DNA from: Gallionella sp.
GTDB lineage: Bacteria > Pseudomonadota > Gammaproteobacteria > Burkholderiales > Gallionellaceae
Length of the DNA stretch: 62,838 nt
Direction of reading: 5' to 3'
NCBI GenBank assembly: GCA_013044075.1
Contig: JABEVG010000041.1
Coordinates: 1 to 62,838, forward strand
This document shows positions 42,058 to 61,397 of this stretch, piece after piece (position 1 is the first letter of the stretch; every line of letters starts with the position of its first letter). Position numbers and translations under genes: made by a program. The notes beneath the pieces are model-generated. The model was given only the letters and a program-made list of their open reading frames with translations, ran no database searches and was not told the origin of the DNA.

Positions 42058-42864
42058 ATGAGCGAAAGCCAACTCCAACTGATTCCGTTTGCGCGTATCC
42101 ACGGCGAACCCCTGCTGGAGTTGCCGCAGGATCTGTACATCCCGCCGGACGCGCTGGAGCTGGTGCTGGAGAACTTCCAGGGGCCGCTGGATCTGTTGCT
42201 GTATCTGATCCGCAGACATAACCTCGATGTGCTGGACATCCCGATGGCGGAGCTGACCCGCCAGTACATGGGTTATATCGAACTCATGCAAAGCAACCGC
42301 ATGGAACTGGCGGCGGAATATCTGCTCATGGCGGCGGTGCTGATCGAGATCAAGTCGCGCATGTTGTTGCCCAAAATCGCCAAGGTCAGCGACGACGGTA
42401 TCGAGGATCCGCGTGCCGAACTGATGCGCCGTCTGCTGGAATACGAGCAGATGAAACTGGCAGCGCAGCAGTTGAACGAGCTGCCGCAAGCCGGACGCGA
42501 TTTCGAGATCGTGCGAGTGCTGATCGAGAACACCGTGGCGGAACGCTTACCGCAAATCGGTGTGGACGATCTCAAGCAGGCCTGGCTGGGATTGCTGACC
42601 CGTGCCAAGGTCAACAAGCATCACACCATACGCCGCGAGCAACTGTCGGTGCGCGAGCAGATGACGCATGTGTTGCGTTGCCTGAAGAGCGGCGACTATG
42701 TCGCGTTCGAGAGCTTGTTCGATCTGGAGGGGGGCTTGCCCAAGCTGGTCGTCACCTTCATCGCGGTGCTTGAACTGGCCAAGGAATATCTGGTCGAGAT
42801 CCAACAAACCGAAACCTTTGGGAGCATCTATGTCCGGACCAATCGAGCCATCAACGACGAGTAA
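42058..42864 (+). CDS. scpA: Segregation and condensation protein ScpA
   Basis: The 268-residue kleisin has the ScpA N-terminal motif [24 protein letters not shown]. With ScpB and SMC it forms the bacterial condensin that compacts and separates chromosomes. No smc gene is in the window. It overlaps scpB by 35 bp. Confidence 0.94.
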
Positions 42865-43543
42865 TGCAAACATTGCCGAGCATGCTGCCTCCCTGGAAGC
42901 CGTTCATGCTGAGCCTTTCGACGTCGCTCAAGACAGGCCGGTCGAAGCAGCCACGTCGGCGGCAGGCACGCAGATCAGCACCGACCTGTTCGACGGCAAG
43001 ATGAACACCGCGCAATTCAAACTGGTGCTGGAAGCCGCGCTGCTTACCTCTGCCGAGCCGCTGCCCTTGTCTGAATTGAAGAAACTCAGCGACGTGTCGC
43101 TGGACAACGCCCAGCTCGAAACCCTGCTGGATGAATTGGCGCAAGACTGGCGCGGGCGCGGCGTGGAATTGACCCGTGTCGCGAGCGGCTGGCGTTTCCG
43201 CGCCAAGCCGCACATGCAAACCTATCTGGACAGATTGAATCCGCAAAAACCGCCGCGCTATTCGCGCGCCGTGATGGAGACGCTCGCCATCATCGCCTAC
43301 CACCAGCCTGTCACGCGCGGCGACATCGAAGAGATACGCGGCGTGGCCGTGTCGGCGCAGATACTCAAGACGCTGGAAGCGCGCGGCTGGGTAGACGTGA
43401 TCGGCACGCGTGACGTACCCGGTAAACCCGAGTTGTTCGCGACCACGAAACAACTGCTGGATGATTTGAATTTACGCGGCCTGAATGAACTGCCCGCGCT
43501 GCAAGAAATCAGCGCGCTGCTGGAGCCACAGGCCGCCATGTGA
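42830..43543 (+). CDS. scpB: Segregation and condensation protein ScpB, repeat in its N-terminus
   Basis: The 237-residue protein has a normal winged-helix body from residue about 57 ([20 protein letters not shown]) through [20 protein letters not shown] and [17 protein letters not shown]. Residues about 27-41 ([14 protein letters not shown]) come from a dispersed repeat copy in the non-conserved N-terminal extension. The ATG at 42830 follows GGGAG inside scpA. The last 86 bp of homology recur at 50832-50916. Confidence 0.9.
42909..42947. repeat. Dispersed repeat in scpB
   Basis: The segment ctgagcctttcgacgtcgct, then caagacaggccggtcgaag, has the common 'gagcctttcgac...ggtcgaag' form with partly complementary ends. 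It is translated in scpB. A relative stands in def (27254-27298). Confidence 0.7.
43428..43513 (+). repeat. scpB 3'-end segment, left copy
   Basis: This stretch in the live scpB gene is repeated, at about three-quarters identity and with one single-base gap, at 50832-50916. The core at 43460-43480 is identical over 21 bases. The offset between the copies is 7404 bp. Confidence 0.8.
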
Positions 43544-43620
43544 ACCCCGCAAGCAGTGTCGTGAAGGTCGCGCGCAGTTCCAGTCGGTTTTTCCAATTTC
43601 AATGGTGAAGAGGAGTCGTC

Positions 43621-44427
43621 ATGCGTAACGTCATCAGCCAATACCTGATCGAAAAAGAGCCCTACTACCGCGACGTATCGGATGAGGTGACCGTGTTTGA
43701 AGCGGCCTATTCCGCGCGTATGCCGATGATGCTAAAGGGGCCGACAGGTTGCGGAAAAACCCGCTTCATCGAATACATGGCGTGGAAACTCCAGCGGCCT
43801 TTGATTACTGTTGCATGCAACGAAGACATGACCGCGTCCGATCTGGTGGGACGTTTTCTGCTCGATGCCAATGGCACGCGCTGGCAGGACGGGCCGCTTG
43901 CCATCGCGGCCCGTTTCGGTGCGATCTGTTATCTCGATGAGATCGTGGAGGCACGCCAGGATACGACCGTGGTCATCCATCCGCTCACCGATAACCGCCG
44001 GGTGCTTCCCTTGGAGAAGACCAGCGAACTGGTGCAGGCGCATCCCGATTTCCAGCTGGTGATTTCCTACAATCCCGGCTATCAAAGCGTGATGAAAGAT
44101 CTTAAACAATCGACCAAGCAGCGTTTCGGCGCGCTCGATTTCCAATATCCCGAACCGGCGATCGAAGAAGAAATCGTCGCCCATGAAACGGGTGTTTCCG
44201 GTGAAATCGCCAAGAAGCTGGTCTCGATCGCGAAAATGGCGCGGAATCTCAAAGGCCACGGCCTGGACGAGGGGATATCCACCCGGATGCTGATTTACGC
44301 GGGCAGCCTTATCGTCAAGGGTGTCGTGGCAAAGAAGGCTTGCCGTGTCGCTCTGGTGTCACCCATCACCGACGATCTGGATATGCGTGACGCGCTGGAT
44401 GCGGCGGTGGAGACTTTTTTTGGCTAG
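43621..44427 (+). CDS. CbbQ/NorQ-type MoxR AAA+ ATPase
   Basis: The 268-residue protein has Walker A GPTGCGKT (residues 40-47), Walker B YLDEI and the CbbQ/NirQ/NorQ segments [13 protein letters not shown] and [10 protein letters not shown]. Family members remodel metal enzymes (Rubisco activation by CbbQO, nitric oxide reductase by NorQD) together with a VWA-domain partner, which follows here. No Rubisco or norCB gene is in the window, so the client is unknown. GAAGAGGAG gives a strong ribosome-binding site. Confidence 0.9.
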
Positions 44428-44490
44428 CATGGGGATGAGCCCAATGCAAGATAGAGCCGGTGTGAGTGACGGGAGTGGCAGGGTTGCCCT

Positions 44491-46329
44491 GTGCGGTTCG
44501 TTTTGCCTGCCACCGTGCCGGACCGTGACATCGCCATGAAGCACAGTTTCGGACGTGTCGCGCGCGAGCTGCATAATTATCTCGGCAAGACGGGCAAGGA
44601 TGCCTTGCCCGTCTTGCGCCAAGAATACAAGCGCACCCGGTTGATCGATGTCCAACGCCGTATCCTGATCTATCTGCACGCCTTATGGGGTTGCGATTTC
44701 GTCATCAAGTCCATCACGGGGGAGGACGATGATCACGGGAGGCCCAAGCCTTTCGTCAGCAAGGGTTGCATCCATTTGCCGGATTTTTATTACGGTTTCA
44801 CCACTGAAGCAGTCGCGCATGTCACGGGTCTGGAAACCTATCGTGCGGCTGCCGCTCATGCTGCGGCACACGTCATCTACACGAAGACCCACTACACCGC
44901 AAAGTCCTTCGACAAATGGCAACGCGCGGTCATCGCCACGATAGAAGATGCGCGGGTGGAGGCGTTGTCGATGCGCAGATTCCCCGGGCTGAAACAACTC
45001 TGGGTCAGGCAGCATACTGCCACCCCCGCGCACCATGAGACCGCTGGCGACTATCTCACTCGCCTCGCCCGCGCGTTGCTGGACGAGTGCTATCTGGACG
45101 ACGACCCCTGGATCGTACAGGGACGGGAACTGTTCAACGCGACGAGCGATCTGGAGAGCGATGATGTTTCACGGAGCATAGGCTTGACGCTGGCGCGCGC
45201 GTTCGAGAAAAAGAGAATCAAGTTCAAGGTCCGCACGGATAGCCCCGGTGCGTTCTATCGTGACGACAACCGCTATTTATGGGAGTCGGCGAGACTGGGT
45301 CCCGACCAGGAGCGGGAATTACCCAGCTATTTTTTTAGGTTCAAATTGCTCTTGACCAGCAACGAGGTGTCGAGCACCGACAAGGAAGTCAAGCAATCCC
45401 TGACAAGAGACCCGGTACAGGAAGTGTCGGCTTCGGCAACCTATATTTACCCGGAATGGGATTACCGCAGCCAGATCGAGACCCCTTCCTGGGTGACCCT
45501 GCGGGAACTCACTCCCGCGACCGGCGAGATTAAGGTCATTGATGACATCATCGCCAGCAACAGCCCGCTCATTTCGCGCATGAAGAATCTGCTCCTGGCC
45601 ATCCGGGATAAAGGGGTGCGCCGTATCAGGAAACTCGAGGAAGGTGACGAGATAGACATCAATGCCGCCATCCGCGCCCAGATCGATCTCAGGATGGATG
45701 TGCAGCCCGACACCCGAATCATGATGCGCTCGATCCGCAAGACACGGGACATCTCGGTGTTGGTGCTGCTGGACCTTTCCAGCTCGGCGAATCAAAAGGT
45801 TCACGGGCAAGACCACACCGTGCTACAGCTGACCCAGCAGGTTTGCGTGCTATTCGCCGAAGCCATTGAAACCGTCGGTGACCCACTCGCCATCCACGGT
45901 TTCTGCTCCAAAGGTCGGCACGATGTCGAGTATTTCCGGTTTAAGGATTTCGACCAGTGCTACGACGATGTTCCGAAAGCCAAGCTTGCCGGCATGACCG
46001 GACAGCGTTTCACCCGCATGGGGGCGGCGATACGTCATGCCACGCATCAGCTCAACCAGCAGAAGTCCAGAAAGAAGCTGTTGATGATCATTACTGACGG
46101 TGAGCCGGCGGACATCGACGTGCACGACCGGCAATACCTGCGCTACGACACCAAGCAGGCGGTCAATGATGCCGGACGCGGTGGCATCCATACCTATTGC
46201 ATCGGCCTCGACCCCAAAGCCGATGAATACGTCTCGCGCATATTCGGCGCGAGAAACTACATGGTGGTCGACCACATTAAAAGTTTGCCGGAAAAAATGC
46301 TCCTGATCTATGCGGCACTGACCCTTTAG
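44491..46329 (+). CDS. CbbO/NorD-type VWA protein
   Basis: The 612-residue protein ends in a VWA domain with MIDAS motif DLSSSANQK (about residue 427), T-containing FTRMGAAIRHAT and ITDGEPADID. The N-terminal half is the helical CbbO/NorD region. It is the adaptor for the upstream AAA+ ring. Its length is nearer to NorD (about 600) than to long CbbO (about 770). The start is a GTG at 44491; ATG at 44536 (MKHSFGRVARELHN) is a good alternative. The intergenic gap to cbbQ is 63 bp. Confidence 0.85.
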   Translation: MRFVLPATVPDRDIAMKHSFGRVARELHNYLGKTGKDALPVLRQEYKRTRLIDVQRRILIYLHALWGCDFVIKSITGEDDDHGRPKPFVSKGCIHLPDFYYGFTTEAVAHVTGLETYRAAAAHAAAHVIYTKTHYTAKSFDKWQRAVIATIEDARVEALSMRRFPGLKQLWVRQHTATPAHHETAGDYLTRLARALLDECYLDDDPWIVQGRELFNATSDLESDDVSRSIGLTLARAFEKKRIKFKVRTDSPGAFYRDDNRYLWESARLGPDQERELPSYFFRFKLLLTSNEVSSTDKEVKQSLTRDPVQEVSASATYIYPEWDYRSQIETPSWVTLRELTPATGEIKVIDDIIASNSPLISRMKNLLLAIRDKGVRRIRKLEEGDEIDINAAIRAQIDLRMDVQPDTRIMMRSIRKTRDISVLVLLDLSSSANQKVHGQDHTVLQLTQQVCVLFAEAIETVGDPLAIHGFCSKGRHDVEYFRFKDFDQCYDDVPKAKLAGMTGQRFTRMGAAIRHATHQLNQQKSRKKLLMIITDGEPADIDVHDRQYLRYDTKQAVNDAGRGGIHTYCIGLDPKADEYVSRIFGARNYMVVDHIKSLPEKMLLIYAALTL

Positions 46330-46360
46330 CAACGCTCTTTAGTTTTGCGGGCTGTATCGG

Positions 46361-47578
46361 TCAGGGATGGCCTGTGGAGCGGTTGGCCGTCTTGTTATGC
46401 TCGATCGCCGCAAGTGCCAGATTCCTTTCGGTACATTGCTTCCATTCATCGCGGGCCGCGTTGGCCGGATCGTTCTGTAAGGTGCATGCGCACCGGCAAG
46501 CCGCCGCGCGGTAACAGCCTTCGATACTGTGCTGCTTGCAGGCAGATTGCTGCTGCACACATTGCGCGTTGCAGATTCGTGCCACATCGCGTGCTTTCTG
46601 TTGTACGGCCGGCGGTATCTTGGGCAACTCTTTGGGTTGCGTCACGATGCCCCACACCGTCATCGCGATTCCCGCCGACAAGAGCGCGATCAACAGCCGG
46701 TTTTTCTTCAGCAACAGGCTGATTCTGTTCTGCTGCCGGGTGGTGTTCGCCGAGGTTGAGCTCAACTCGAAAGTCAACAGACCCGGCACAGCGGATTTTT
46801 TATGCAGTCGGTCGCACGCGTCTATACATTCGCCGCAGTTGATGCAGATATCATCGGGCTTGATGTGGGTCGGCTGAATGTTGGTGATACAGACCGTCGC
46901 GCAATAATTGCACTTGGTGCAATCCGGCGAGCGTGTCGCATCATAGGTCACATGCAAGGCATCATGCGTTTTGAATATTCTTTGCCCCATGCGGTAAAAG
47001 CAAACGTAGTCGCACACGAAATAGCGCAACACCGCGATGTCGATGAAAACCAAAAACACCATGATCAGATAGACGATGAGCGGTGATAGCTTCTCGGGAT
47101 GACGGTAAGTCACCATTTCCCAGACTGCTGTCGGCGTATAAAAAAACAGGAACGGAATCAGTGCCAGAAATAGTGAGGCGACCAAAAAGCTGGTGCCGAG
47201 TATGGCCCAATTCAACAATTTGTTTTTTGCTGCGGCAACTTTTAGCCCTTCACTTCCGACCTCCACGCTGGCGCGTTTTCCGAGTAAGCGATGAGTCAGA
47301 TTGTTCGCCCATTCCGCAAGCAGGTTTTGCGGGCAGGCCCATCCGCACCAGACGGTACCGACGGTCATATAGGTGAGTATCGGGGCGGTCGCCAGAATCA
47401 GCGCGAGACCGAACACCAGGGTGAAACTGGACCACCAGATTTGATGGCCGAGGATGAAGAAACTCGCGGTCGTGAGATCGATACGCAACAATCCGGTGGC
47501 TGGAACCAGCGCGATCAGTATCAGCGTGGAAAGCTGAACCAGTCTTCTTTTCCGGCGATAGGGTGAGGTGTCTGTCAT
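46361..47578 (-). CDS. CcoG/FixG-like polyferredoxin with Cys-rich tail
   Basis: The 405-residue protein follows the CcoG (RdxA/FixG) plan to residue about 260: four to five membrane helices, CGWACPQ and CDYVCFYRMGQ motifs, and two 4Fe-4S motifs, CTKCNYCATVC and CINCGECIDAC. CcoG reduces Cu(II) for cytochrome cbb3 assembly. After the last helix (LLIALLSAGIAMTVWG) the usual Ig-like domain is missing; instead there is a short tail with eight cysteines (ICNAQC, SACK, GCY, ACRCAC, QC), expected in the periplasm. No ccoNOP genes are near. Confidence 0.8.
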   Translation of the reverse strand: MTDTSPYRRKRRLVQLSTLILIALVPATGLLRIDLTTASFFILGHQIWWSSFTLVFGLALILATAPILTYMTVGTVWCGWACPQNLLAEWANNLTHRLLGKRASVEVGSEGLKVAAAKNKLLNWAILGTSFLVASLFLALIPFLFFYTPTAVWEMVTYRHPEKLSPLIVYLIMVFLVFIDIAVLRYFVCDYVCFYRMGQRIFKTHDALHVTYDATRSPDCTKCNYCATVCITNIQPTHIKPDDICINCGECIDACDRLHKKSAVPGLLTFELSSTSANTTRQQNRISLLLKKNRLLIALLSAGIAMTVWGIVTQPKELPKIPPAVQQKARDVARICNAQCVQQQSACKQHSIEGCYRAAACRCACTLQNDPANAARDEWKQCTERNLALAAIEHNKTANRSTGHP

Positions 47579-47688
47579 GCGGATAGCTTACGTGTGATGG
47601 AGTGACTACATACCGGACAAAATCAACCGGTTGCCGGAGGTGTCGCGCGACGATAAGGAATCATACCCGTCGGCTCGACAGTACGCAC

Positions 47689-48933
47689 TCATGCGTGCTC
47701 TTTGACCAGGGTTTCACTCATCCGCACGGCTGCGATTACACCGGACAGCAAGGTCAGTCCCGCCACCAGCCAGATCGCCGCCGACAGGCCGAAAAGGTCG
47801 GCAGTGATCCCCGCCAGCAACGCACCGACTGCGTAGCCCAGGTCGCGCCACAGGCGGTAGACACCGACGGCAGACGCGCGCCAGACAGGGTGAGCCACGT
47901 CTCCGATCGCGGCCAGCAGAGTGGGATAGACCATGGCGGTACCGAGCCCCAACAATACTGCGCCGACACTGAACAGCATGAACCCGGCTGCAAGCGCGGT
48001 GATGGCAATGCCCACCGCCTGTAGCCACATACCCCATACGATCAGCCATTTTCGGCCCACCCTGTCCGACAATGCGCCGGTGAATATTTGCGACGCGCCC
48101 CAGACAGCCGGATAGATCGCGGCGAGGATGCCGATTTGCGCGAGCGTCATGCCGGCTGCGGCGAATACCAGTGGAAACAAGCCCCAAGCCATGCCGTCGT
48201 TCAGATTGTTGACCAGCCCTGCCTGGCTGACGCTGGAAAGATTGGGGTCGGTCAGCGAGGTGCGACGAAAAATCTCGACCTGAGTAAGATTTCCTGTGCC
48301 GTTTGCCGGGTGGTGCGTGCGCAGCTCGTGGGTGACATGGTGTCGTGTCTCACGAACGGTCAGCACGGACAGCAGCAGTCCGGCCACCACATAGACTACG
48401 CCCAGATAAAACGGTTGCGGACGAAGCCCGTAATGCGCGGCTATCCAGCCCGTTGCAAGTGCACTGGCGGCCACGGCGAAATAACCGGAAAACTCGTTGA
48501 GTCCCATCGCCAGGCCGCGTTGCTTCGGGCCGACCAGATCGATCTTCATGATCACCGTGGTGGACCAGGTCAAGCCTTGGCTGACACCCAGCAACACATT
48601 GGCCATCACCACCCAGTTCCAGCTGGGTGCCCACATCAGGATAAACGGCACCGGAATGGCAACCATCCATCCCGCCACCAACACCTGCTTGCGTCCAAAG
48701 CGGTCGGAAAAACGCCCCGCAAAATAATTGGTCAGTGCCTTGGTGATGCCGAACACCACGATGAAGGAAAGGATCGCCGTCCGCGCCACGATGTGAAATT
48801 CGTGTTCTGCGATGGCGGGCAGAATGCTGCGCTCGAGACCCACCATCGCGCCGACAAAGGCATTGACGAGTACCAGCAACGAGAATTGGCCGAGGTTCTC
48901 GCGCAGCCCGAGCCGGATGGTGGCGTGCTGCAT
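47689..48933 (-). CDS. MFS transporter
   Basis: The 414-residue protein has twelve membrane helices and the MFS motif A GRFSDRFGRKQVL between helices 2 and 3, with a second copy GALSDRVGRKWLI in the second half. Substrate unknown; it is 3 bp after the MBL hydrolase and the DsrE gene in the same direction, which points to a sulfur-compound cargo (for instance thiosulfate or sulfite), an inference from context. Confidence 0.85.
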   Translation of the reverse strand: MQHATIRLGLRENLGQFSLLVLVNAFVGAMVGLERSILPAIAEHEFHIVARTAILSFIVVFGITKALTNYFAGRFSDRFGRKQVLVAGWMVAIPVPFILMWAPSWNWVVMANVLLGVSQGLTWSTTVIMKIDLVGPKQRGLAMGLNEFSGYFAVAASALATGWIAAHYGLRPQPFYLGVVYVVAGLLLSVLTVRETRHHVTHELRTHHPANGTGNLTQVEIFRRTSLTDPNLSSVSQAGLVNNLNDGMAWGLFPLVFAAAGMTLAQIGILAAIYPAVWGASQIFTGALSDRVGRKWLIVWGMWLQAVGIAITALAAGFMLFSVGAVLLGLGTAMVYPTLLAAIGDVAHPVWRASAVGVYRLWRDLGYAVGALLAGITADLFGLSAAIWLVAGLTLLSGVIAAVRMSETLVKEHA

Positions 48934-48936
48934 ACC

Positions 48937-49674
48937 TCAAGCTGCCTGGCCGAGATTGAAACGCATCATGGCTTCCATTTCGGGCGGGCGAGGCGGGATC
49001 TCGTGGGTCAGATATTCGACGAAAGCGGCTTTGTTCATAGCCAGTCCGGGATTCCAGTGCTTCTCAAACCCCAGAGTCGATGACGGCTTGCCCGACAAGC
49101 CTGCACCGCAGAGGCTACCCGCCTGATGCCCCGGATAGATTTCGAGTGTGTCAGGTAACGGCAGGAGCTTGGTATGCAAAGTGTCGTAAAGCACACCGGC
49201 CATTTCCGCCTCACGTCCCGCCAGGTCGGGTCGACCGATCGCACCCACGAACAACGTGTCGCCGGTGATGATGAACCACGGCAAGTTCCCGCGACGCATA
49301 TCGGTCACCAGCAGGCAGATGCTGTCCGGTGTGTGGCCGGGTGTATGCAGCACGGTGACCTTGACGTTGCCGATGTCGAGCGATTGGCCGTCGCGCAAGT
49401 GCTCGAACTCGAATCTGCCCCGGCCTTCATTCGATTCGTGCAGGCAGTAGGGCGCGCCCACCAGTTGCGCGAGCTTCCTGCCGCCGGAGTAATGGTCGGC
49501 ATGGACGTGGGTGTCGATGACGTAATCGATACTGACGTTGGCTTTTTTCGCCTCTTCGACGAACCATGCTTCATCGCCCGCGACCACATCCACCGCGACC
49601 GACTTGCCCTTGCCGCCGCAGCCGAAAAAATACGACAGGGTGGATTCCTTGGTTGCCAGTTGTTTGAAAAACAT
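48937..49674 (-). CDS. MBL-fold hydrolase, persulfide dioxygenase (ETHE1/Blh) type
   Basis: The 245-residue protein has the metallo-beta-lactamase motif HVHADH (His56, His58, Asp60, His61), HTPGHTPDS and GDTLFVGAIGRPDL, closest to ETHE1/Blh persulfide dioxygenases and glyoxalase II relatives. Such enzymes oxidise glutathione persulfide to sulfite with iron. GGAGAAGG precedes the ATG at 49674. Neighbouring DsrE and ArsR-rhodanese genes support the sulfur role. Confidence 0.85.
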   Translation of the reverse strand: MFFKQLATKESTLSYFFGCGGKGKSVAVDVVAGDEAWFVEEAKKANVSIDYVIDTHVHADHYSGGRKLAQLVGAPYCLHESNEGRGRFEFEHLRDGQSLDIGNVKVTVLHTPGHTPDSICLLVTDMRRGNLPWFIITGDTLFVGAIGRPDLAGREAEMAGVLYDTLHTKLLPLPDTLEIYPGHQAGSLCGAGLSGKPSSTLGFEKHWNPGLAMNKAAFVEYLTHEIPPRPPEMEAMMRFNLGQAA

Positions 49675-49717
49675 GTTGCCTTCTCCCAAGACTCAACAAG
49701 CGGGATACCCAGTGTTT

Positions 49718-50068
49718 TCAAAACACCAAGACTTTGTCCGCCCACGCCGTCCATTCACCCAGCTCCGCGAGGGTGCTGCGGTGTGTACCTTCCAGGATCT
49801 CGCCGTCACCCATGCCGCGCGCATCCATGCAAGTGCCGCAGATGCCGACCTCTCCACCATGACGGATCACGTTACCCAGCATGTCTGCGATGTTATAAAA
49901 ACCTTGCGGCACTTTCTGCTTGCCGTGTGCGGATGAGGCCGCGTCGCCGATCAGAAAGATCCGCACCGTATTGCTTTCCAGTTTGGCAAGATGCCCCGCC
50001 AGTCGCAGTCCGTTGTAGGTGCGTTCGCTGCCATAGGGAGGGTCGTTGAGAATGAACAGGGTTTTCAT
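49718..50068 (-). CDS. DsrE family sulfur-carrier protein
   Basis: The 116-residue protein matches the DsrE/F-like fold: MKTLFILNDPPYGSERTYNG, then ICGTCMDARG with Cys77 and Cys80. DsrE-like proteins pass persulfide sulfur between enzymes such as rhodaneses. It is first in the operon with the MBL hydrolase and MFS genes, divergent from the ArsR-type regulator. Confidence 0.88.
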   Translation of the reverse strand: MKTLFILNDPPYGSERTYNGLRLAGHLAKLESNTVRIFLIGDAASSAHGKQKVPQGFYNIADMLGNVIRHGGEVGICGTCMDARGMGDGEILEGTHRSTLAELGEWTAWADKVLVF

Positions 50069-50090
50069 GATGGGCTCCTTGGTTGCTTAC

Positions 50091-50107
50091 GTTCTAATTA
50101 TTACTGG
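50091..50107. promoter_or_regulatory. Candidate operator half, dsrE side
   Basis: gttctaattattactgg here matches gttctaacacttaatgg at 50166-50182 in 13 of 17 bases, same orientation. It is 22 bp upstream of the dsrE start and probably binds the divergent ArsR-type protein. Confidence 0.45.
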
Positions 50108-50165
50108 AATGATTTAACCATCTGTTGTGTATGTATGTCAATGTGGTTTATAGTCACGAGCATAT

Positions 50166-50182
50166 GTTCTAACACTTAATGG
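50166..50182. promoter_or_regulatory. Candidate operator half, arsR side
   Basis: Second copy of the 17-bp direct repeat, 8 bp before the regulator start, where binding would block its translation start region or promoter, in line with autoregulation. Confidence 0.45.
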
Positions 50183-50190
50183 ATTGAAAG

Positions 50191-50868
50191 ATGAAAGGCT
50201 CACGCCAGATCAAAGACCTGCTGTACGAGCAGGTAGCGCGGATAGGCAAGGTGTTTTCCAGTCCCAAGCGACTGGAGCTGATCGAATTGCTGTGCCAGGG
50301 TGAAAAGACCGTGGAGTCGCTGGCGCGCGAAGCTTCCATCAGTGTGAAGCTGACCAGCGCGCACTTGCGCGAATTGCGCGGGGCGCGTCTGGTCGAGACC
50401 GAGCGGCAGGGCAAGAACATCTGCTACCGGCTCGCCGATAAGGCGGTAGCCGACCTGTGGGTGCAAGTCCATATGCTGGCCGAAGAGCGTTTGATCGAAT
50501 TGCAAATGGCGGTGCAGAAGATCGCCGCGCAGCCGGACGATTTGATCGCCAACGACCGCGACAGTCTGTTGAAGGCCGCGCGTAAAGGCGAGGTGGTGGT
50601 GCTGGATGTGCGACCGGCAGAAGAATACCTGACCGCGCATCTTCCTTTCGCGAGGTCGATACCGCTGGGCGAGTTGCGGCAACGGTTGGCGGAACTGCCC
50701 AAAGACCGTTTTATCGTCGCCTACTGCCGGGGGCCGTATTGCCTGATGGCGAATGATGCGGTCGAGTTGCTCAAGCGGGAGGGATACGCGGCCATCCATC
50801 TGCGCGACGGGGTCGCCGAATGGGGTGCAACCGGAGTTATTCGCGATAACAAAACAATTGCTCGATGA
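50191..50868 (+). CDS. ArsR-type repressor fused to a rhodanese domain
   Basis: The 225-residue protein has an N-terminal ArsR winged helix (residues about 8-95; SISVKLTSAHLRELRGA is the recognition region) and a C-terminal rhodanese domain with active-site Cys179 in AYCRGPYC. Cys35 and Cys78 in the HTH part could sense persulfide, as in SqrR/BigR. It likely controls the divergent dsrE-MBL-MFS operon. The last ten residues and stop are encoded by the displaced scpB tail, so the C-terminus is recombinant. Confidence 0.88.
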   Translation: MKGSRQIKDLLYEQVARIGKVFSSPKRLELIELLCQGEKTVESLAREASISVKLTSAHLRELRGARLVETERQGKNICYRLADKAVADLWVQVHMLAEERLIELQMAVQKIAAQPDDLIANDRDSLLKAARKGEVVVLDVRPAEEYLTAHLPFARSIPLGELRQRLAELPKDRFIVAYCRGPYCLMANDAVELLKREGYAAIHLRDGVAEWGATGVIRDNKTIAR

Positions 50869-50916
50869 TTTGAATTTACGCGGCTAGAACGAGTTGTTCG
50901 CGTTGCAAAAAACAGC
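50832..50916 (+). pseudogene. Displaced scpB 3'-end remnant
   Basis: Read in the scpB frame this gives [12 protein letters not shown], stop, NELFALQKTA, against [24 protein letters not shown] of live ScpB. Upstream bases also match (gagttattcgcga against gagttgttcgcga). A premature TAG and one missing base show decay. It overlaps the 3' end of the ArsR-rhodanese gene, in a different frame. Confidence 0.8.
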
Positions 50917-50978
50917 TCACGTGCTTGGGTCAATGATAAGCCGGTGCGTTGAGTTGATATTTAATCGGCGAATACAAC

Positions 50979-51365
50979 TCAGTTATTTTTGGCTCCTTGT
51001 TTCACCCATTTTTTCAGGATTTCAATTTTATCCTTGGCTAGACCTCCTTCTAATCCGTATGGCATCTTGAGTGAAGGGTGAGCACGCCCTTCGACCAACT
51101 GAATCAAGACGCTTGTATAGCTGTCACCTGGGTTGATCACTGCCCCGAAGTTGGTACCCTTCATCAGGCTCTGGTAAGTGCGCATATCTAGCCCGCTTTT
51201 TTCATAACCCTTGCCACCAGGTTCGTGACAATTCAAACAATAGTCATGAATGATCGGCTTTACATCATTTGTGTAGCTGACATCTCCAAGAGCCAGCGCG
51301 GGAAACGCCGTAACCAGAAATGATGCGGCCAGAACAAAACCGCCCAGCAAATTATGGTTTTTCAT
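50979..51365 (-). CDS. Small monoheme cytochrome c-like protein
   Basis: The 128-residue protein has a signal peptide (to FPALALG) and one heme motif, CLNCH, followed by GGKGYEKSGLDMRTYQSLMKGT, as in planctomycete-type cytochrome c (PSCyt1) domains. It is expected in the periplasm. The start at 51365 follows GAGGTG. It is part of a run of three cytochrome genes on the minus strand. Confidence 0.8.
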   Translation of the reverse strand: MKNHNLLGGFVLAASFLVTAFPALALGDVSYTNDVKPIIHDYCLNCHEPGGKGYEKSGLDMRTYQSLMKGTNFGAVINPGDSYTSVLIQLVEGRAHPSLKMPYGLEGGLAKDKIEILKKWVKQGAKNN

Positions 51366-51464
51366 ATAGCACCTCATAAAGTAAGTTTCCTGCATCAAAA
51401 CAAAAATTCTTCGAGTTCTCCAGGTTCTCATCACACAGCGGAGTGATAAGAACCTGAGAAAATC

Positions 51465-51785
51465 TTATTTTGCCAGGCCAGCTATATATTCCGACATCAA
51501 TTTGATATCAGCGTCACTTGCCCCCATGCCTTTTGGCGGCATCGTTCCAATTTTCCAGCCAAACGAACCGCCTTGGGTAGTGCTGGCAGCAATTTTACTG
51601 GCAGCGTCTTTATCATTCTTGTATTTCGCGGATATATCCATGTATGACGGACCAACGGATTTTTTGTCGACAGCATGGCATACGCCGCACTTGGCTTTGC
51701 CGGCAGCAGGCATATCTGCTGCCAGTGCGGTTCCTGCGACAATCAGACTTGCTATTGTGATCATGCCCCAAATACTAGATTTCAT
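51465..51785 (-). CDS. Class I cytochrome c (c-551/c-552 type)
   Basis: This 106-residue protein has a signal peptide (cleavage after ALA), heme motif CGVCH (about Cys33) and a distal Met in IGTMPPKG. It is a soluble periplasmic electron carrier. The ribosome-binding site AAGGAG lies just upstream. It probably links the membrane cytochrome gene upstream to a terminal reductase. Confidence 0.92.
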   Translation of the reverse strand: MKSSIWGMITIASLIVAGTALAADMPAAGKAKCGVCHAVDKKSVGPSYMDISAKYKNDKDAASKIAASTTQGGSFGWKIGTMPPKGMGASDADIKLMSEYIAGLAK

Positions 51786-51854
51786 TTTTTTCTCCTTAAG
51801 TTGGTGGTTGAATGGAAATGATACTCGTGCCTCATGTTTTGTTTCATGGTACTT

Positions 51855-52016
51855 CTAAGCTAATTTACGAACATCAAACGTTTTGTTTTCAGGCTCTGTC
51901 TTTTCATACCATGGTAGCAACGGTTTTGTCACGAGCCACAGCATGACGTAAGGGCAGATGAAAATAATCAGTGCAGCGAACAAACTTTCACATCCGAACA
52001 GCTTACGACGAAAGGT
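51855..52016 (-). pseudogene. C-terminal fragment of a membrane protein
   Basis: The open stretch after a stop at 52019 encodes LFAALIIFICPYVMLWLVTK, a membrane helix, then PLLPWYEKTEPENKT and a stop. There is no start codon in a plausible place and the upstream end abuts the cytochrome gene 3' end. It looks like the remaining tail of a deleted membrane subunit; the parent family is not recognised. Confidence 0.35.
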
Positions 52017-52062
52017 CTACATTTGCGCGATAAATACGCCGCAACAGACTTGGAGTGCCATC

Positions 52063-52788
52063 TCACCCAGCAACAGGCCGTTTCAGAAACCAGATTTGAT
52101 ACAGCGATATTAAAATTTGTGCCGCCATTGAAAACCCCAACACTGCACCGGCAATCACCACCACCAACGCGTATTGCGAATCCCATTTGGTGAGAAACCA
52201 CGACAGCACGTCCACGAACACCGCGACCATCGGCGACAACACCAGGAAGCGTTTGAAGTACACGTTGATCTCGCTTTGAATGAAGATGTAGCCCAGCACG
52301 AACAGCAACATACTGATGCCGAACAGATGGATGTGCGACAGCCTGAGCAAGCTGGTTATCGACATGCCGGTGTCCACTTCGGCAAATTTGTGCAACCCCT
52401 CATATGTGCTGAAATCGGGCAGATTCATGCCGGAACTGGCGACATGACAGTTCAAACAAGTCTTCTGCAATATTGGTTTGATGTCCTTGTCGAAATGTTC
52501 CTGCTGCGCACCATCTTTCAACCATGCCACCATCACGTTGCGGTCAGTATCTGTAATCTGATTTGACATCGGCCCGCGTATCGCGGCTTCCAGCCGTGTA
52601 CCGCTACGGTTGCCGTAGTAACTGTATGCCACATCCTCGACGGATAACCCGGGCTTGCCGTCGAGCCCTTCATGGGTCACGTAAAGATATGCGTTGGCCA
52701 TCAAATAACTCAAGCCGACCAGCAGCAGGAAAGAGGTGTAAAGCAACTTTTCGCTAACAGTGCGATCGTAAAAACGCGGTGCGTCCAT
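52063..52788 (-). CDS. Membrane-bound monoheme cytochrome c
   Basis: The 241-residue protein has an N-terminal membrane helix (LLYTSFLLLVGLSYLMANAY), a periplasmic heme domain with CLNCH (about residue 111), then three helices (SHIHLFGISMLLFVLGYIFI and two more). Histidines in SHIHLFG are conserved-looking. The layout suggests a quinol- or cytochrome-linked electron-transfer subunit. It heads the cytochrome gene run; a dyad lies about 100 bp upstream. Confidence 0.75.
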   Translation of the reverse strand: MDAPRFYDRTVSEKLLYTSFLLLVGLSYLMANAYLYVTHEGLDGKPGLSVEDVAYSYYGNRSGTRLEAAIRGPMSNQITDTDRNVMVAWLKDGAQQEHFDKDIKPILQKTCLNCHVASSGMNLPDFSTYEGLHKFAEVDTGMSITSLLRLSHIHLFGISMLLFVLGYIFIQSEINVYFKRFLVLSPMVAVFVDVLSWFLTKWDSQYALVVVIAGAVLGFSMAAQILISLYQIWFLKRPVAG

Positions 52789-52891
52789 AGTATTTCCTTC
52801 CGTTAAATTTCAATGCCTTCACTAAAACCGCAGCCGTGAGCTGCAATAAATGTCCTTGCTTTAACAATCAGCGAAAGAGTACCAGAATTTA

Positions 52892-52910
52892 AGTCACACG
52901 AGATGTGACT
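52892..52910. promoter_or_regulatory. Dyad upstream of the membrane cytochrome gene
   Basis: agtcaca and tgtgact (7 bp, perfect) surround cgaga, 104 bp upstream of the start. The half-sites resemble those of the CRP/FNR family but in the reverse order, so the binding protein is uncertain. Confidence 0.35.
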
Positions 52911-52994
52911 GTGAGTATCACGTAGTATTTATACGCGGCAGCGAACATCGTTATTTGCCGCACGATTAAATCGTCCAATTTTTTGTGTCCGATC

Positions 52995-53456
52995 TTACAA
53001 AAACCGATCCAGTAATTTGCGGCTGTGCCTGTCGAGCCGGTCGACATCGTCTATCAGGAACGAGATGCCCTGGCTGTCGGTGATGAGCAGGGTGGTGAGA
53101 CCCAGGCGGCGGATGTGGTCTTCGGCTTTGAGGATGAGCTCGGTCTCGCCCCGGTCGGTCGCCACTGTCCAGGTGCTGGGCGTGGCATAGCTGCTGACGG
53201 CTGCGATGCGGGAGATTTTGGGCATGAACTCGCGTCTGGCGAGTTCGCCGGAGACCAGGTTGAGATTGTTTGCCGAAAGGTCGCGCAAGTCGGCTATCCA
53301 GACCAGTTCGTGACCGTCTTCGCCGATCAAAGACACGCCTTCGTCGGGTGCGGAGATCGGATAGGCGCGCACCACCAGAATATTTTCATGCCGCTTGCCG
53401 TCTGGGTCGGTGTACGCGAGTTGTCCCGCAGCATCCAGGCTCAAAATCAAGTTCAT
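52995..53456 (-). CDS. DUF1854 protein of the cyanophycin locus
   Basis: The 153-residue protein belongs to DUF1854, a family found next to the cyanophycin-associated ABC transporter. Visible pieces: ILVVRAYPISAPDEGVSLIG, LVWIADLRDLS and EFMPKISRI. Its function is unknown. It overlaps the ABC gene stop by 4 bp, so it is coupled to it. Confidence 0.85.
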   Translation of the reverse strand: MNLILSLDAAGQLAYTDPDGKRHENILVVRAYPISAPDEGVSLIGEDGHELVWIADLRDLSANNLNLVSGELARREFMPKISRIAAVSSYATPSTWTVATDRGETELILKAEDHIRRLGLTTLLITDSQGISFLIDDVDRLDRHSRKLLDRFL

Positions 53457-55747
53457 GCCTCGTCCTCGCCGGTTTGGGTTGGGTTATCGTCCAGATCGGC
53501 ATCGACGTTGCGCGCTTGCGCCAGGTACAGGCGGTAGTACGCGCCCTGCTTGGCCATGAGTTCATCATGGTTGCCGATTTCCACGACTACGCCCCGGTCC
53601 AGTACCACCAGCCGATGAGCCTTGTGCAAGGTCGACAGACGGTGCGCGATGGCGATGGTGGTGCGGCCATGCACGAGGTTGTCCAGGGCTTTCTGGATCT
53701 CCTTTTCGGTCTCGGTGTCCACCGATGCGGTGGCTTCGTCGAGGATCAGAATGCGCGGGTCGATGAGCAGGGCGCGCGCGATGGAGATGCGCTGGCGTTC
53801 GCCGCCGGACAAGCCGTGACCGCGTTCTCCGACCAGTGAATCGTAACCGTGCGGCAGGCGCAGGATGAACTCATGCGCGTGGGCGGCGCGTGCCGCCGCG
53901 ATGATCTCGGCGCGGGTCGCGGCGGGTTTGCCGTAGGCGATATTCTCGGCGATGGAGCCGAAGAACAGGAACGGCTCTTGCAGCACCAGGCCGATGTTGC
54001 TGCGATATTCCGCGATGGGCAGCTGGCGGATGTTCACGCCGTCTATGCTGATCGATCCCTCGGAGACATCGTAAAAGCGGCACATCAGATTCACCAGCGT
54101 GCTCTTGCCCGAGCCGCTGTGCCCCACCAGCCCGATCATCTCGCCCGGCTCGATGTCGAGGTTCAAGCCTTTGATGACGCTGCGGTTGCCATAGCGAAAT
54201 CCCGCGTCGCGCAGGGTGATGCGACCGGAGATGTTTTCCAGATGCACCGGATGCGCAGGCTCGGGCACGCTGGAGACGTGGTCCAAAATATCGAAGATGC
54301 GCTTCGCGCCCGATGCGGCTTTTTGCGTGACCGACACGATACGGCTCATCGAATCCAGACGCGTGTAGAAACGGCTGATGTATGCGAGGAAAGCCGTCAG
54401 CACACCGACCGTGATTTCATCGCGCGACACCAGCCAGATGCCGAATGCCCATACCACCAGCAGACCGATCTCGGTGAGTAGCGTGACGCTGGGTGAGAAC
54501 AGCGACCAGATCTTGTTGATGTGATCGTTGACCAAAAGATTATGCGCATTGGCTGCGCGGAAGCGGCTCGCCTCGCGGTCTTCCTGCGCGAAGGCTTTGA
54601 CCACGCGGATGCCGGGGATGGTGTCGGCCAGCACGTTGCTGACTTGCGACCAGACCCGGTCGATTTTCTCGAAGCCGGTGCGCAGCTTGTCGCGCACGAT
54701 ATGGATCATCCAGGCGATGACGGGCAGCGGCAGCAGTGTGACGACCGCCAGCCAGGGGTTGATGGAGACAAGAATCGCGGCGGTCATCAAAATCATCAGC
54801 ACGTCGGTGGCGAAATCCAGCAGGTGCAAAGACAGGAACACGCAGATGCGATCCGATTCCGATCCGATGCGCGACATCAGATCGCCGGTGCGCTTGCCGC
54901 CGAAATATTCCAGCGAAAGTTTGAGCAGATGCTCATAGGTCACGGTGCGCAAGTCCGCGCCGATGCGCTCGGAAACCAGCGCGAGGATGTAAGTCTTCGC
55001 CCAACCCAGGCCCCACGCCAATAACGCCGATGCGAACAGGCCGCCCAGCAACCAGCTTACCGTGACCGTGTCGATAGGCGCGCCGTTCTGGTACGGGATC
55101 AGCACCTTGTCCATCAGCGGCATGGTGAGATAAGGCGGGACTAGGGTGGCGGCGGTGGAGGCCAGCATCAACATGAATCCCGACAGCAATTGCCAGCGAT
55201 AAGGTTTGGCAAAACGCCACAGACGCAGCAGCGTCCAGGTAGAGGGCGGAGCTTCTTCATCGGCGTCGCACTGGGGGCATTGGTCCAGCACCAATGCAGA
55301 GCCGCATTTGTTGCAGGCTTCGGTTGTGTCGGTGACGACGGGCCCGCCGCTGAGAAAGCTGTCGAGTTGCCGCACGAATTGTTTGATGAAGCGGAGTGTC
55401 GCGGCATCGAGGGCCAGGGTGTAACGCCATTGCGCCAACCGTGACTCCCCCTCCGTCAGCGTCAGACTGCCCACGCCGGCGTGGTCATGTTGTTCCAGTT
55501 TGAGCCTGGCGCGGTAGGGGAATTCCAGGCAGGATCGCGCACCCGCAGCAGGCTCCCGGTCAAACGAAGCAAAATACAGCAGGCGATTTTCGGTCGCGAG
55601 CAGCAGGCTTTTTTTGAAGTGCAGACGTTCGTCCAGATTGGTTTCCAGCCACGCATGTATCTGCTCATTACCCTGTAAGTGCGGACGGACAGTGGTTTGC
55701 CAGACATCGGGAAAAGACGGGGGGGCAGGTGTAGAGGTGTTGTTCAC
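53453..55747 (-). CDS. Cyanophycin-associated ABC exporter (half transporter with N-terminal domain)
   Basis: The 764-residue protein has an N-terminal soluble region (1-140), a CxxC zinc-ribbon (CNKCG, then CPQC at about 141-160), a type IV ABC membrane domain (about 180-460; six helices) and an ABC ATPase with Walker A GHSGSGKST, signature LSGGERQR and Walker B ILILDEAT. It is divergent from cphA' with 130 bp between, the standard cyanophycin arrangement. Substrate unknown; peptide or amino acid export are possible. Confidence 0.9.
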   Translation of the reverse strand: MNNTSTPAPPSFPDVWQTTVRPHLQGNEQIHAWLETNLDERLHFKKSLLLATENRLLYFASFDREPAAGARSCLEFPYRARLKLEQHDHAGVGSLTLTEGESRLAQWRYTLALDAATLRFIKQFVRQLDSFLSGGPVVTDTTEACNKCGSALVLDQCPQCDADEEAPPSTWTLLRLWRFAKPYRWQLLSGFMLMLASTAATLVPPYLTMPLMDKVLIPYQNGAPIDTVTVSWLLGGLFASALLAWGLGWAKTYILALVSERIGADLRTVTYEHLLKLSLEYFGGKRTGDLMSRIGSESDRICVFLSLHLLDFATDVLMILMTAAILVSINPWLAVVTLLPLPVIAWMIHIVRDKLRTGFEKIDRVWSQVSNVLADTIPGIRVVKAFAQEDREASRFRAANAHNLLVNDHINKIWSLFSPSVTLLTEIGLLVVWAFGIWLVSRDEITVGVLTAFLAYISRFYTRLDSMSRIVSVTQKAASGAKRIFDILDHVSSVPEPAHPVHLENISGRITLRDAGFRYGNRSVIKGLNLDIEPGEMIGLVGHSGSGKSTLVNLMCRFYDVSEGSISIDGVNIRQLPIAEYRSNIGLVLQEPFLFFGSIAENIAYGKPAATRAEIIAAARAAHAHEFILRLPHGYDSLVGERGHGLSGGERQRISIARALLIDPRILILDEATASVDTETEKEIQKALDNLVHGRTTIAIAHRLSTLHKAHRLVVLDRGVVVEIGNHDELMAKQGAYYRLYLAQARNVDADLDDNPTQTGEDEA

Positions 55748-55877
55748 TTTGATCGAGTTTTGCCGGAATCGCCCGATTTTACATTGCCCTCTGGTAAACT
55801 AAAATGGCTACTTGTGCGTTATGCCGGTTCATGGCTGGTTTATTAATACAATCTCACTTACTCATCTGGACGGATTG

Positions 55878-58040
55878 ATGGAGTTTCTCAACATACTGCC
55901 GCTGCGCGGCCCGAACGTCTGGACTTACCGCCCGGTACTGGAAGTTTGGCTGGACATCGGCGATCTGGAAGACTCTCCTTCCAATACCATTCCCGGTTTT
56001 TACGAACGTCTCACCGCATGGCTGCCCGAGTTGATCGAGCATCGCTGTGGCGTGGGCGAACGCGGCGGGTTCCTGATGCGCTTGAAAGAAGGCACCTGGC
56101 CGGGACATATCCTCGAACACGTCACCATCGAGCTGCAAAATCTGGCGGGCATGCAAAGCGGTTTTGGCAAAGCCCGCAGCACCGGTGTGCGCGGCGTATA
56201 TAAAGTAGTGGTGCGTTCGCGCAACGAGCAGGTCAGCCGTGCTGCGCTGCATGCCGCGCGTGATCTGGTGTTGGCGGCGATGCAGGACCGCAGTTTCGAC
56301 GTGGCGGCGACCATCGCCACGTTGCGCGATATGGTCGATGCGCTGTGTCTGGGGCCTTCCACGGCGTGCATCGTCGATGCGGCGACCGAGCGTGGCATCC
56401 CTTCCATACGCCTGAATGAGGGCAATCTGGTGCAACTCGGTCACGGTGCGCGCCAGCATCGCATCTGGACGGCGGAGACCGATCAGACCAGTGCTATCGC
56501 CGAGACCATTTCGCGCGACAAAGATCTGACCAAGAGTCTGCTGGGTGCGTGCGGTGTGCCCGTGCCTGAAGGCCGTGTCGTGGACAGTCCCTCCGACGCG
56601 TGGGATGCGGCGGAGGACATCGGCGTGCCGGTGGTGGTGAAACCCAGCGATGGCAATCACGGACGCGGCGTGTCCACCGAATTGATGACGCGTGCCGAAA
56701 TCGAGGCGGCATACCACTTGGCCGATGCCGAAGGCAGCGAGGTCATCGTCGAACGTTATGTGCGCGGCAACGAACATCGCTTGCTGGTGGTGGGTGGTCG
56801 GCTGGCCGCAGCCGCCAAGGGTGAGCAGGCGTGGGTCACGGGAGACGGTCGTTCGACCATCGGTGCATTGATCGACATGCAACTGAACTCCGATCCGCGC
56901 CGGGGCGAGGCGGAAGAATTCCCGCTGGATGTGGTGAGTTTGGCAGGCAATGCCGTGACGCGCATGGAAGTCGAGCGGCAAGGTTATACCGCCGACTCGA
57001 TACCGCCCGCAGGCAAAAAGGTTTTAATTGTGCGCAACGGCAACGTGGCAATCGATGTGACCGATGAAGTTCATCCCGAGATCGCCGGGATGGCAGCACT
57101 CGCGGCGCGCATCATCGGACTGGATATCGCGGGAGTGGATATGGTCGCCGAGGATATTTCGCGTCCGTTGAGCGTGCAGGATGCAGCCATCGTTGAGATC
57201 AACGCCGGCCCGGGTCTGCTCATGCATCTCAAGCCGGCCGAAGGACAACCGCGCCCGGTCGGCAAGGCGATCGTGGATAGCCTGTTTGATACCGGTGACA
57301 ACGGGCGCATCCCCATTGTGGGCATTTGCGGCACGACCGGCAAAACCCAGGTCGCGCAGCTGGTGGCGAATCTGTTGCGGTTGTCCGGTAAACACACAGG
57401 CCTGGCGTGCAGCGCGGGCCTTTCTTTCGATGGTCGCGTGCAGGACGCGCGCGATTGCGCGAACTGGGCTGCTGCGCAGAAAGTGTTGTTGAACCGCAAC
57501 GTCGAGGCCGCCGTGATTGAAAACAGCATCGCCACGATTCTGAACGAGGGCTTGGGCTACGACCGGTGTCAGGTGGGGGTGGTCACCAATCTGGATGTTT
57601 CGCGGCATTTTGGCGAGTGTTACATCGAAGAGCCGGATCAAGTGTGCAATGTGTTGCGCACCCAGGTTGACGTGGTGCTGGATAACGGCGTGGCGGTGCT
57701 TAACGCAGCTGACCCACTGGTGGCGCAGCTGGCCGGCTATTGCGATGGCGAGGTGATGTTTTTCGCCAGTGATATCGGAGTGCTCGCGGCGCATCGCCAG
57801 CAAGGAGGCCGCTGTGTGTCGCTGCGTGACGGACACGTGGTGCTGTGTACCGCTGAAGTCGAACACGTGCTGGTCAAACTGGCGGGCATCCCCGCAATTG
57901 GCACGCATCAAGACCCGCATCAGATCGAGAATATGCTGGCCGCCATCGCGGCAGTATGGGCGTTGGACGTTACGCCGGAGCTGATGCGTGCCGGGCTGAA
58001 AACTTTTGTCGCTCATACGGTTGCGGCTCAAACAATATAA
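55878..58040 (+). CDS. cphA': CphA' (short cyanophycin synthetase-like protein)
   Basis: The 720-residue protein has the cyanophycin synthetase N domain (LNILPLRGPNVWTYRP), the ATP-grasp domain (VVVKPSDGNHGRGVS, VEINAGPGLLMHL) and a Mur-ligase-like ATP site GTTGKT in place of the usual GTNGKT. The final Mur-ligase C-terminal domain present in CphA (residues about 700-850 there) is missing. Paired short and long cphA genes are known in betaproteobacteria; the short one may have a limited or altered activity. ATG at 55878 is preferred over upstream frames. Confidence 0.9.
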   Translation: MEFLNILPLRGPNVWTYRPVLEVWLDIGDLEDSPSNTIPGFYERLTAWLPELIEHRCGVGERGGFLMRLKEGTWPGHILEHVTIELQNLAGMQSGFGKARSTGVRGVYKVVVRSRNEQVSRAALHAARDLVLAAMQDRSFDVAATIATLRDMVDALCLGPSTACIVDAATERGIPSIRLNEGNLVQLGHGARQHRIWTAETDQTSAIAETISRDKDLTKSLLGACGVPVPEGRVVDSPSDAWDAAEDIGVPVVVKPSDGNHGRGVSTELMTRAEIEAAYHLADAEGSEVIVERYVRGNEHRLLVVGGRLAAAAKGEQAWVTGDGRSTIGALIDMQLNSDPRRGEAEEFPLDVVSLAGNAVTRMEVERQGYTADSIPPAGKKVLIVRNGNVAIDVTDEVHPEIAGMAALAARIIGLDIAGVDMVAEDISRPLSVQDAAIVEINAGPGLLMHLKPAEGQPRPVGKAIVDSLFDTGDNGRIPIVGICGTTGKTQVAQLVANLLRLSGKHTGLACSAGLSFDGRVQDARDCANWAAAQKVLLNRNVEAAVIENSIATILNEGLGYDRCQVGVVTNLDVSRHFGECYIEEPDQVCNVLRTQVDVVLDNGVAVLNAADPLVAQLAGYCDGEVMFFASDIGVLAAHRQQGGRCVSLRDGHVVLCTAEVEHVLVKLAGIPAIGTHQDPHQIENMLAAIAAVWALDVTPELMRAGLKTFVAHTVAAQTI

Positions 58041-60621: not shown

Positions 60622-61397
60622 AGTGGATAGCATCCCGCGATAACCCGTTCTTCAAAGCATTAGCGAAGCTGGCCGACTCGGCCAGACAACGCCATAAAAC
60701 CGCGCAGACCTTGCTGGACGGCACGCACCTGCTGGCGGCGTATCTCGACAGCGGGCAAGTGCCCCAGCATGTTGTGTTGAACCGGGCAGCATCGTGCGAT
60801 GCAGGGGTCGCCGCGTTGCTGGACCGGATCGCGCAGGTGCCGGTCACACAACTGGACGACAGGCTATTCGCCGAACTCAGCGACCTGAAAACCCCCACCG
60901 GCATACTCGCGCTCATCGCCATTCCGCAAACCGCGCGGTTGCCGGGACACTTCGCGCTGTTGCTGGAAGATATACAAGACCCCGGCAACCTCGGCTCGAT
61001 ATTGCGTTCGGCCGCCGCCGCCGGGTGTGATGCGGTATTCCTGTCCCCCGCTTGCGCGGATGCGTGGTCACCCAAAGTGCTGCGCGCCGCGATGGGCGGA
61101 CACTTCGCGTTGCGCATCCACGAGCAACAGGATCTGCCGGGCGTGGCGCAATCATTTTCCGGTGCGCTGTTCGCTACCAGTTTACAGGCCGAACGCAGCC
61201 TGTATGACTGCGAGTTGCGCGGTGAGATCGCGTTTATGGTGGGTAACGAAGGAGCGGGTTTGTCGGGCGTGCTACGGGCTCTCGCCACACACAGCATCAC
61301 CATTCCCATGCCCGGAAAAGTCGAATCGCTTAACGCCGCAGCGGCCACGGCGGTCTGTCTGTTTGAAGCCGTGCGCCAGCGTGCCGGTGGCAGATGA
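60618..61397 (+). CDS. TrmH/SpoU family RNA 2'-O-methyltransferase
   Basis: The 259-residue protein has the SpoU knot motifs ALLLEDIQDPGNLGSILRSA, FMVGNEGAGLS and ITIPMPGKVESLNAAAATAVCLFE, plus an N-terminal substrate-binding domain. It methylates a ribose in tRNA or rRNA. Its ATG overlaps the cphA stop (4 bp), so it may be carried on the same message. The exact RNA is not deducible. Confidence 0.92.
   Translation: MKWIASRDNPFFKALAKLADSARQRHKTAQTLLDGTHLLAAYLDSGQVPQHVVLNRAASCDAGVAALLDRIAQVPVTQLDDRLFAELSDLKTPTGILALIAIPQTARLPGHFALLLEDIQDPGNLGSILRSAAAAGCDAVFLSPACADAWSPKVLRAAMGGHFALRIHEQQDLPGVAQSFSGALFATSLQAERSLYDCELRGEIAFMVGNEGAGLSGVLRALATHSITIPMPGKVESLNAAAATAVCLFEAVRQRAGGR

Follow-up and report, generated by a model that had tools for sequence, protein, structure and literature searches.

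Why does the end of scpB, a housekeeping gene, occur twice in a stretch of Gallionella DNA, once in an intact gene and again in decayed form about 7.4 kb further on, and how did the DNA between the copies come to lie there? We studied this in a window of 62,838 nucleotides, which is the whole stretch of DNA analysed (Gallionella sp., assembly GCA_013044075.1, contig JABEVG010000041.1). The original prediction took 43428-50916 as a unit inserted at the 3' end of scpB by an element that supplied a new functional gene tail and left the old one on its far side, with entry of a donor segment by homologous recombination as the alternative. The repeat is defined by three features.

42830-43543, plus strand: scpB, live copy, by a domain match to SMC_ScpB (PF04079)
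43425-43513, plus strand: the repeated 3' part of live scpB, by alignment
50829-50916, plus strand: decayed duplicate of the scpB 3' end, here called the patch, with an in-frame stop, one base lost and a GC of 0.42

Positions 43425-43508 and 50829-50912 are identical at 68 of 84 ungapped positions, and the gapped alignment over the full extents listed above has 80.9% identity, the right copy being one base short. The local score of the tail repeat was 91, far above chance considering that simulating the right-hand DNA 60 times with a first-order Markov model gave 34 at most. When the scpB tail was searched in its own genome (G000; 92.99% complete, 124 contigs), it was found at two places at E ≤ 0.001, the second copy with E = 1e-16. 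The two tails share an identical core of 21 nt (43460-43480 and 50864-50884), directly after which the patch, read in the frame of scpB, has a TAG stop at 50885-50887. As such, the predicted repeat with its 21-base core, in-frame stop and lost base was confirmed. A gene scpB was found in 67 of the 76 genomes of the genus that were searched, the other 9 having no match; none of the 66 other scpB-bearing genomes has a second match limited to the tail (G020 gave two matches, both long and each on its own contig), and no second tail was found in the DNA examined at 85 scpB loci.

The edges of the inserted DNA are set by comparison with relatives, for which the following features are needed.

43544-52994, no strand: the whole inserted region of 9.45 kb (9451 nt), by comparison with the empty site of the relative G087
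52995-53456, minus strand: DUF1854 protein associated with cyanophycin metabolism, the right edge of the slot, by domain match
53453-55747, minus strand: ABC transporter of the cyanophycin cluster, by domain match
55812-58040, plus strand: cyanophycin synthetase-type protein, by domain match
60618-61382, plus strand: SpoU-family RNA methyltransferase, by domain match

In G087 the site is empty: scpB and the convergent DUF1854 gene end in stop codons 4 nt apart. Since this empty site sets the edges, the insertion is 43544-52994, cytochrome genes included, and not the 7.4-kb unit that had been claimed. The expectation that a relative would lack the insert was borne out by G087, but scpB there adjoins DUF1854, which places the cytochrome block inside the insertion. 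Two further relatives have other contents in the same slot: that of G019, a genome of the window's genus, is about 1.15 kb long with a DUF3034 gene, and that of G089 is about 5.6 kb long with a DUF294/CBS protein and a sodium:solute symporter. Neither holds a second scpB tail. The slot is thus seen in four genomes, empty in G087 and with three unlike fills in G019, G089 and the genome of the window, between common core flanks (L163 was taken as G019 and L164 as G089, each counted once; many of the G-numbered genomes are fragmented). The empty and differently filled sites support the view that DNA behind scpB was gained or moved.

In the same four genomes the cyanophycin cluster (DUF1854, ABC transporter and cyanophycin synthetase) stands between scpB and the SpoU-type methyltransferase. 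Among 64 named loci, left from 65 examined because L227 lacks scpB, this methyltransferase follows scpB at a distance of up to 200 nt in 37, lies farther away in 8 and outside the DNA examined in 13, and the contig is too short in 6. No DUF1854 gene was found within 12.6 kb at scpB of G092, where the neighbourhood differs; behind scpB there (L289 1-12640) are two LexA/UmuD-like genes, a TonB-receptor-like gene and LolDE-like genes, labelled by eye from their translations.

The slot holds the following genes besides an ArsR-rhodanese regulator that is described further below.

43621-44427, plus strand: CbbQ/NorQ-type AAA ATPase (Pfam CbbQ_C and AAA_5)
44491-46329, plus strand: VWA protein of CbbO/NorD type, 612 aa (Pfam gives VWA; the CbbO/NorD name comes from its partner and size)
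46361-47578, minus strand: CcoG-like ferredoxin-type membrane protein (Pfam Fer4_5/Fer4_18)
47689-48933, minus strand: MFS transporter (Pfam)
48937-49677, minus strand: MBL-fold hydrolase (Pfam; persulfide-dioxygenase-like from context only)
49718-50068, minus strand: DsrE/F-family protein (Pfam DsrE)
50979-51434, minus strand: cytochrome c-type protein (PSCyt1), by domain match
51465-51785, minus strand: small cytochrome c, by domain match
52063-52788, minus strand: CxxCH-motif membrane protein, unmatched in Pfam and NCBIfam

At the level of domains, the gene labels given earlier hold for all of CbbQ_C with AAA_5, VWA, Fer4_5/Fer4_18, MFS, MBL, DsrE and HTH_5 with rhodanese. With NCBIfam, the ArsR/SmtB subfamily was above its cut-off, and the BigR, CcoG and sulfur transferase/dioxygenase models were all below theirs (99.6 of 316.7 bits for the CcoG-like protein). 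Because the BigR and sulfur transferase/dioxygenase models fall under the cut-off, it is the combination of genes on which the persulfide reading depends. The GC of the two parts of 43544-50824 is 0.560 and 0.590, codon use being judged as GC by codon position, and that of the flanks is 0.565 to 0.600; the segment originally proposed is therefore not distinct in composition, and GC was dropped as a mark of foreign origin for 43544-50824 since the flank values overlap. The cytochrome block (50917-52994) has a GC of 0.468 and stands apart from the flanks.

Comparing the genes one by one, the cbbO-ccoG pair is found in the convergent order of the window, with 75% DNA identity, in G061 and G080. 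The ccoG gene of G019 (L158 3088-4281), also at 75% DNA identity, is reversed relative to cbbO, and since the orientation is opposite in this sister, a one-gene inversion or exchange would have taken place beside the VWA gene. The orthologue of the slot VWA gene adjoins ccoG in G019 and G061, with no cbbQ match in the DNA examined there. The window's own genome has three CbbQ/VWA-type pairs (in the slot, in G000:C35 and in G000:C20); the open frames of the VWA proteins in the other two are longer than that in the slot, at 780 and 772 aa.

The MFS, MBL, DsrE and ArsR genes occur together in 12 of 15 other ArsR loci. Since the MFS protein of the window is only 40-42% identical in amino acids to those of genus relatives at the same cluster position, this gene seems to have been exchanged inside an otherwise kept sulfur cluster. 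The closest MFS proteins among the best 120 listed are 96% and 89% identical, and the named matches among these 120 include those from Rugosibacter (88%) and Cupriavidus (86%). In G019, G087, G089 and G092 no orthologue-like match was found for ArsR-rhodanese (best 30-43%, mostly to the rhodanese part) or for DsrE (a single match, of 31%, in G019). Because both lack an orthologue in these four clade relatives, the ArsR block would have been gained.

The right-hand end of this block meets the patch inside a gene.

50191-50868, plus strand: ArsR-rhodanese regulator (HTH_5 and rhodanese), residues 1-212 native and the last 13 from the join and the patch
50824-50829, no strand: right-hand join, from the end of ArsR-rhodanese homology to the start of the patch, by DNA alignments

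The ArsR-rhodanese frame enters the patch in a frame other than that of scpB and ends at a TGA (50866-50868). The claim that the second scpB tail supplies the C-terminus of this regulator was borne out in that the join and the patch together encode its last 13 residues. DNA similarity to relatives stops at 50824-50827 in 14 of 15 and at 50759 in one, the patch begins at 50829, and the 3' ends of the relatives are unlike the patch by eye, so that the junction has no homology. P0001, a protein without a listed source, is identical to the regulator of the window at 210 of 212 residues; after the shared residues it ends LLASR, whereas the window reads ATGVIRDNKTIAR. The entry of P0001 has '-' in place of a source, which is the mark for a protein of the window, although its letters differ from those of the window, and this counts against the explanation favoured below. 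Because P0001 ends differently, the join would have removed the native end of ArsR-rhodanese a few bases from the patch. Considering that the rhodanese domain match stops at residue 213, the regulator is probably still functional.

A misassembled contig at this join could also produce such a fusion, and the 124 contigs of the genome and the different end of P0001 would agree with it; the patch itself is decayed, however, and by eye there appears to be no long stretch common to the ArsR 3' ends of relatives and the patch at which an assembler might have crossed, so we consider an assembly error very improbable. Coverage of the fused protein does not exceed 97% in any of the best 120 protein matches, which is neutral on the join. 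ArsR-rhodanese hardly differs from P0001, whereas the patch is worn; the present join is therefore probably an illegitimate junction younger than most of the decay of the patch, a moderately firm conclusion from an argument that sets protein (ArsR-rhodanese against P0001) against DNA (the patch).

For the origin of the two tails, a tree of 66 tails was built on 84 columns, with both L164 and G089 among its rows. The live and decayed tails are sisters (99/80) within the clade of G019, G087, G089 and G092, in a tree whose bootstrap was not settled and in which the remnant was marked as a long branch whose position is uncertain. The branches measure 0.026 changes per site for the live tail and 0.36 for the remnant, and P0241 and P0242, the closest scpB proteins among the best 120 listed, end at the protein level just as the live copy does, with P0244 nearly so. 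As judged from these comparisons, the live tail looks native, which goes against the idea that an element had provided a new functional one. Since the tails are sisters and the closest scpB proteins share the live tail, the copy would have arisen in this lineage or come from a near-identical strain, and then decayed. Compared with G019 in 120-nt windows, live scpA-scpB has an identity that ranges from 0.72, at 42838-42898, to 0.94 and is 0.78 in the final window.

Parsimony on the 16 differences between the tails assigned 9 to the remnant and 1 to the live copy, with 5 ambiguous and 1 neither. Eleven of the 16 mismatches are synonymous, an excess with P = 0.0003-0.006 against plain neutral change and P = 0.017-0.111 if the live copy changes silently only. 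When the remnant branch was polarised by hand, which is looser than the scripted parsimony, 6 of 11 changes were synonymous and 5 were not (P = 0.032-0.128). The excess as proof of a foreign tail was dropped, since the outcome hinges on the null. Because 11 of 16 mismatches are synonymous, the remnant may nevertheless derive from a functional allele of a near relative, or have served as one for some time, which counts against the explanation that we favour below.

Integrative elements can insert in the 3' end of a gene and restore it, as e14 does in icd, and the corresponding islands have an identical core with homology on the restoring side only. The original prediction proposed such an event here, in which an integrase-driven element in the 3' end of scpB gave a new tail and has since lost its integrase. 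The direct repeats with an identical 21-nt core, the location at the end of a gene and, as in e14-type elements, the enclosure of extra DNA by a gene-tail repeat are in line with it. Unlike in e14-type elements, however, no integrase could be found here, the two tails are similar on either side of the core, and a clean outer end is missing. The ten open reading frames scanned in the slot have no recombinase domain, as had been foreseen for the segment, and a lost integrase would escape detection. Outside the slot, where the search covered PF00589, the genome has matches at 9 places, one of them in this contig (8188-8589); it belongs to the sole PF00589 gene of the contig, at 8059-9354, which lies 34 kb left of the slot. 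That gene is a minus-strand open frame of 432 residues with Phage_integrase and arm DNA-binding domains.

Insertion at an attachment core in the 3' end is further weakened by the similarity that continues beyond the core at 28 of 35 positions on the left and 19 of 28 on the right, and by the length of the core, which is unremarkable given that a run of at least 21 appeared in 9.75% of permutations (P = 0.0975). The right edge also falls inside the ArsR-rhodanese gene, the live tail is native at the protein level on its short branch, and the other 66 genomes and the 85 loci have no second tail. The 21-nt repeat as an attachment core is accordingly disfavoured, considering the lack of a nearby recombinase, the flanking similarity, the usual core length and the native live tail, and we give the integrase-driven origin hardly any credence.

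Homologous recombination, the other option of the original prediction, comes nearer to the data than an integrase does, but among the scpB loci examined there is no donor in which scpB is followed by this cargo; this absence also counts against our preferred explanation. Of the slot genes, none was found near scpB in the 65 named loci besides one VWA gene in L218, which is on the strand opposite to scpB and has no CbbQ. This gene (10709-11575, minus strand) is a distant one, with 34% amino-acid identity, and immediately follows scpB in a betaproteobacterial MAG outside the genus core. In one form of the idea, a circle bearing the cargo together with an scpB tail of its own, derived from a same-lineage strain, would have integrated by a single crossover of the Campbell type, leaving both tails hybrid. 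It would account for direct repeats around one block, for similarity to either side of the core, which an ordinary homologous crossover would give, and for the sister relation of the tails. The shared sequence is shorter than 90 nt, however, the right edge cuts ArsR-rhodanese, and the 85 scpB loci have neither the block nor a second tail in the DNA examined, so that we find this course distinctly unlikely.

Alternatively, template switching or an intrachromosomal move may have copied the scpB tail, with some slot genes coming from elsewhere in the same genome. The sister tails agree with this, as does the CxxCH-motif gene at 52063-52788, which is kept at 74-83% in 14 of 75 other genus genomes searched and whose orthologue in G087 and G089 has other neighbours, PriA being one in G089, while the genome of the window has the slot copy only. 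The lack of orthologue-like matches for ArsR-rhodanese and DsrE in the four clade relatives, however, points to a gain from outside for that block, and the MFS is of a lineage other than the genus type; we therefore see this course as unlikely. Parts of the 9.45 kb may nevertheless have come by moves within the genome instead of from outside, which also weighs against the reading preferred below.

The reading that we prefer, to which we give a probability of roughly 60%, is a small cargo hotspot filled in steps, in which an insertion of additive, one-sided or illegitimate kind left the patch as a duplicate scpB tail. In this Gallionella clade the hotspot would be the gap across which the 3' ends of scpB and of the cyanophycin cluster (DUF1854, ABC transporter and synthetase) face each other, and here it would have been filled in more than one step. 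One block would be the low-GC cytochrome genes at 50917-52994, and another would run from the CbbQ/VWA/CcoG-like genes through MFS, MBL and DsrE to ArsR-rhodanese. Stepwise filling is supported because the blocks occur apart in relatives and their GC differs (0.560-0.590 against 0.468). The order in which the cytochrome and ArsR blocks arrived, tried from gene order alone, was not datable. The patch at 50829-50916 would be an scpB tail of this lineage that was duplicated long ago, when DNA was added at scpB through homology on one side and an illegitimate join on the other, or through template switching. It would have decayed afterwards, and the ArsR block would now abut it through an illegitimate junction.

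Events of this kind are known. On orphan immunity genes, a paper on Vibrio T6SS clusters (PMC5361080) sets out a model of homology-facilitated illegitimate recombination (HFIR) that leaves displaced gene ends, and orphaned Rhs 3' regions are mentioned there as well. In line with that model, the scpB locus retains the old gene end beyond the new DNA, here as the patch, and has one junction without homology. Unlike the Vibrio orphans described there, the retained piece is the tail of a housekeeping gene without a use of its own, and the left homology anchor is one that we infer. Oliveira et al. 2017 (PMC5635113) describe hotspots between core genes that lack mobile elements and have recombination at the flanking core genes. 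The scpB slot resembles these in its constant flanks, the differing contents in sister species and the absence of a recognisable mobile element here, and differs from the hotspots described there in that it is known from four genomes of one clade. Among literature titles on scpB as an integration site or on Gallionella genomic islands, none was on this site.

Taken as a whole, the locus is a genuine scar with clear limits inside a small cargo hotspot, left by a known kind of event of which we infer the pathway, the order of steps and the donor. The empty site and the three fills show that metabolic genes can accumulate in a short gap between convergent genes where no mobile element is visible, and such uptake can be recorded by a worn gene tail. 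A direct repeat of a gene tail is by itself no proof of an integrase-type island. A wider and rather doubtful idea is that the scpB 3' end serves this clade as an integrase-free capture site, where one-sided recombination recurs and tail scars are sometimes recruited. If this were true, the join and the patch scar would have given a sulfur-sensing ArsR-rhodanese regulator its new 13-residue end.
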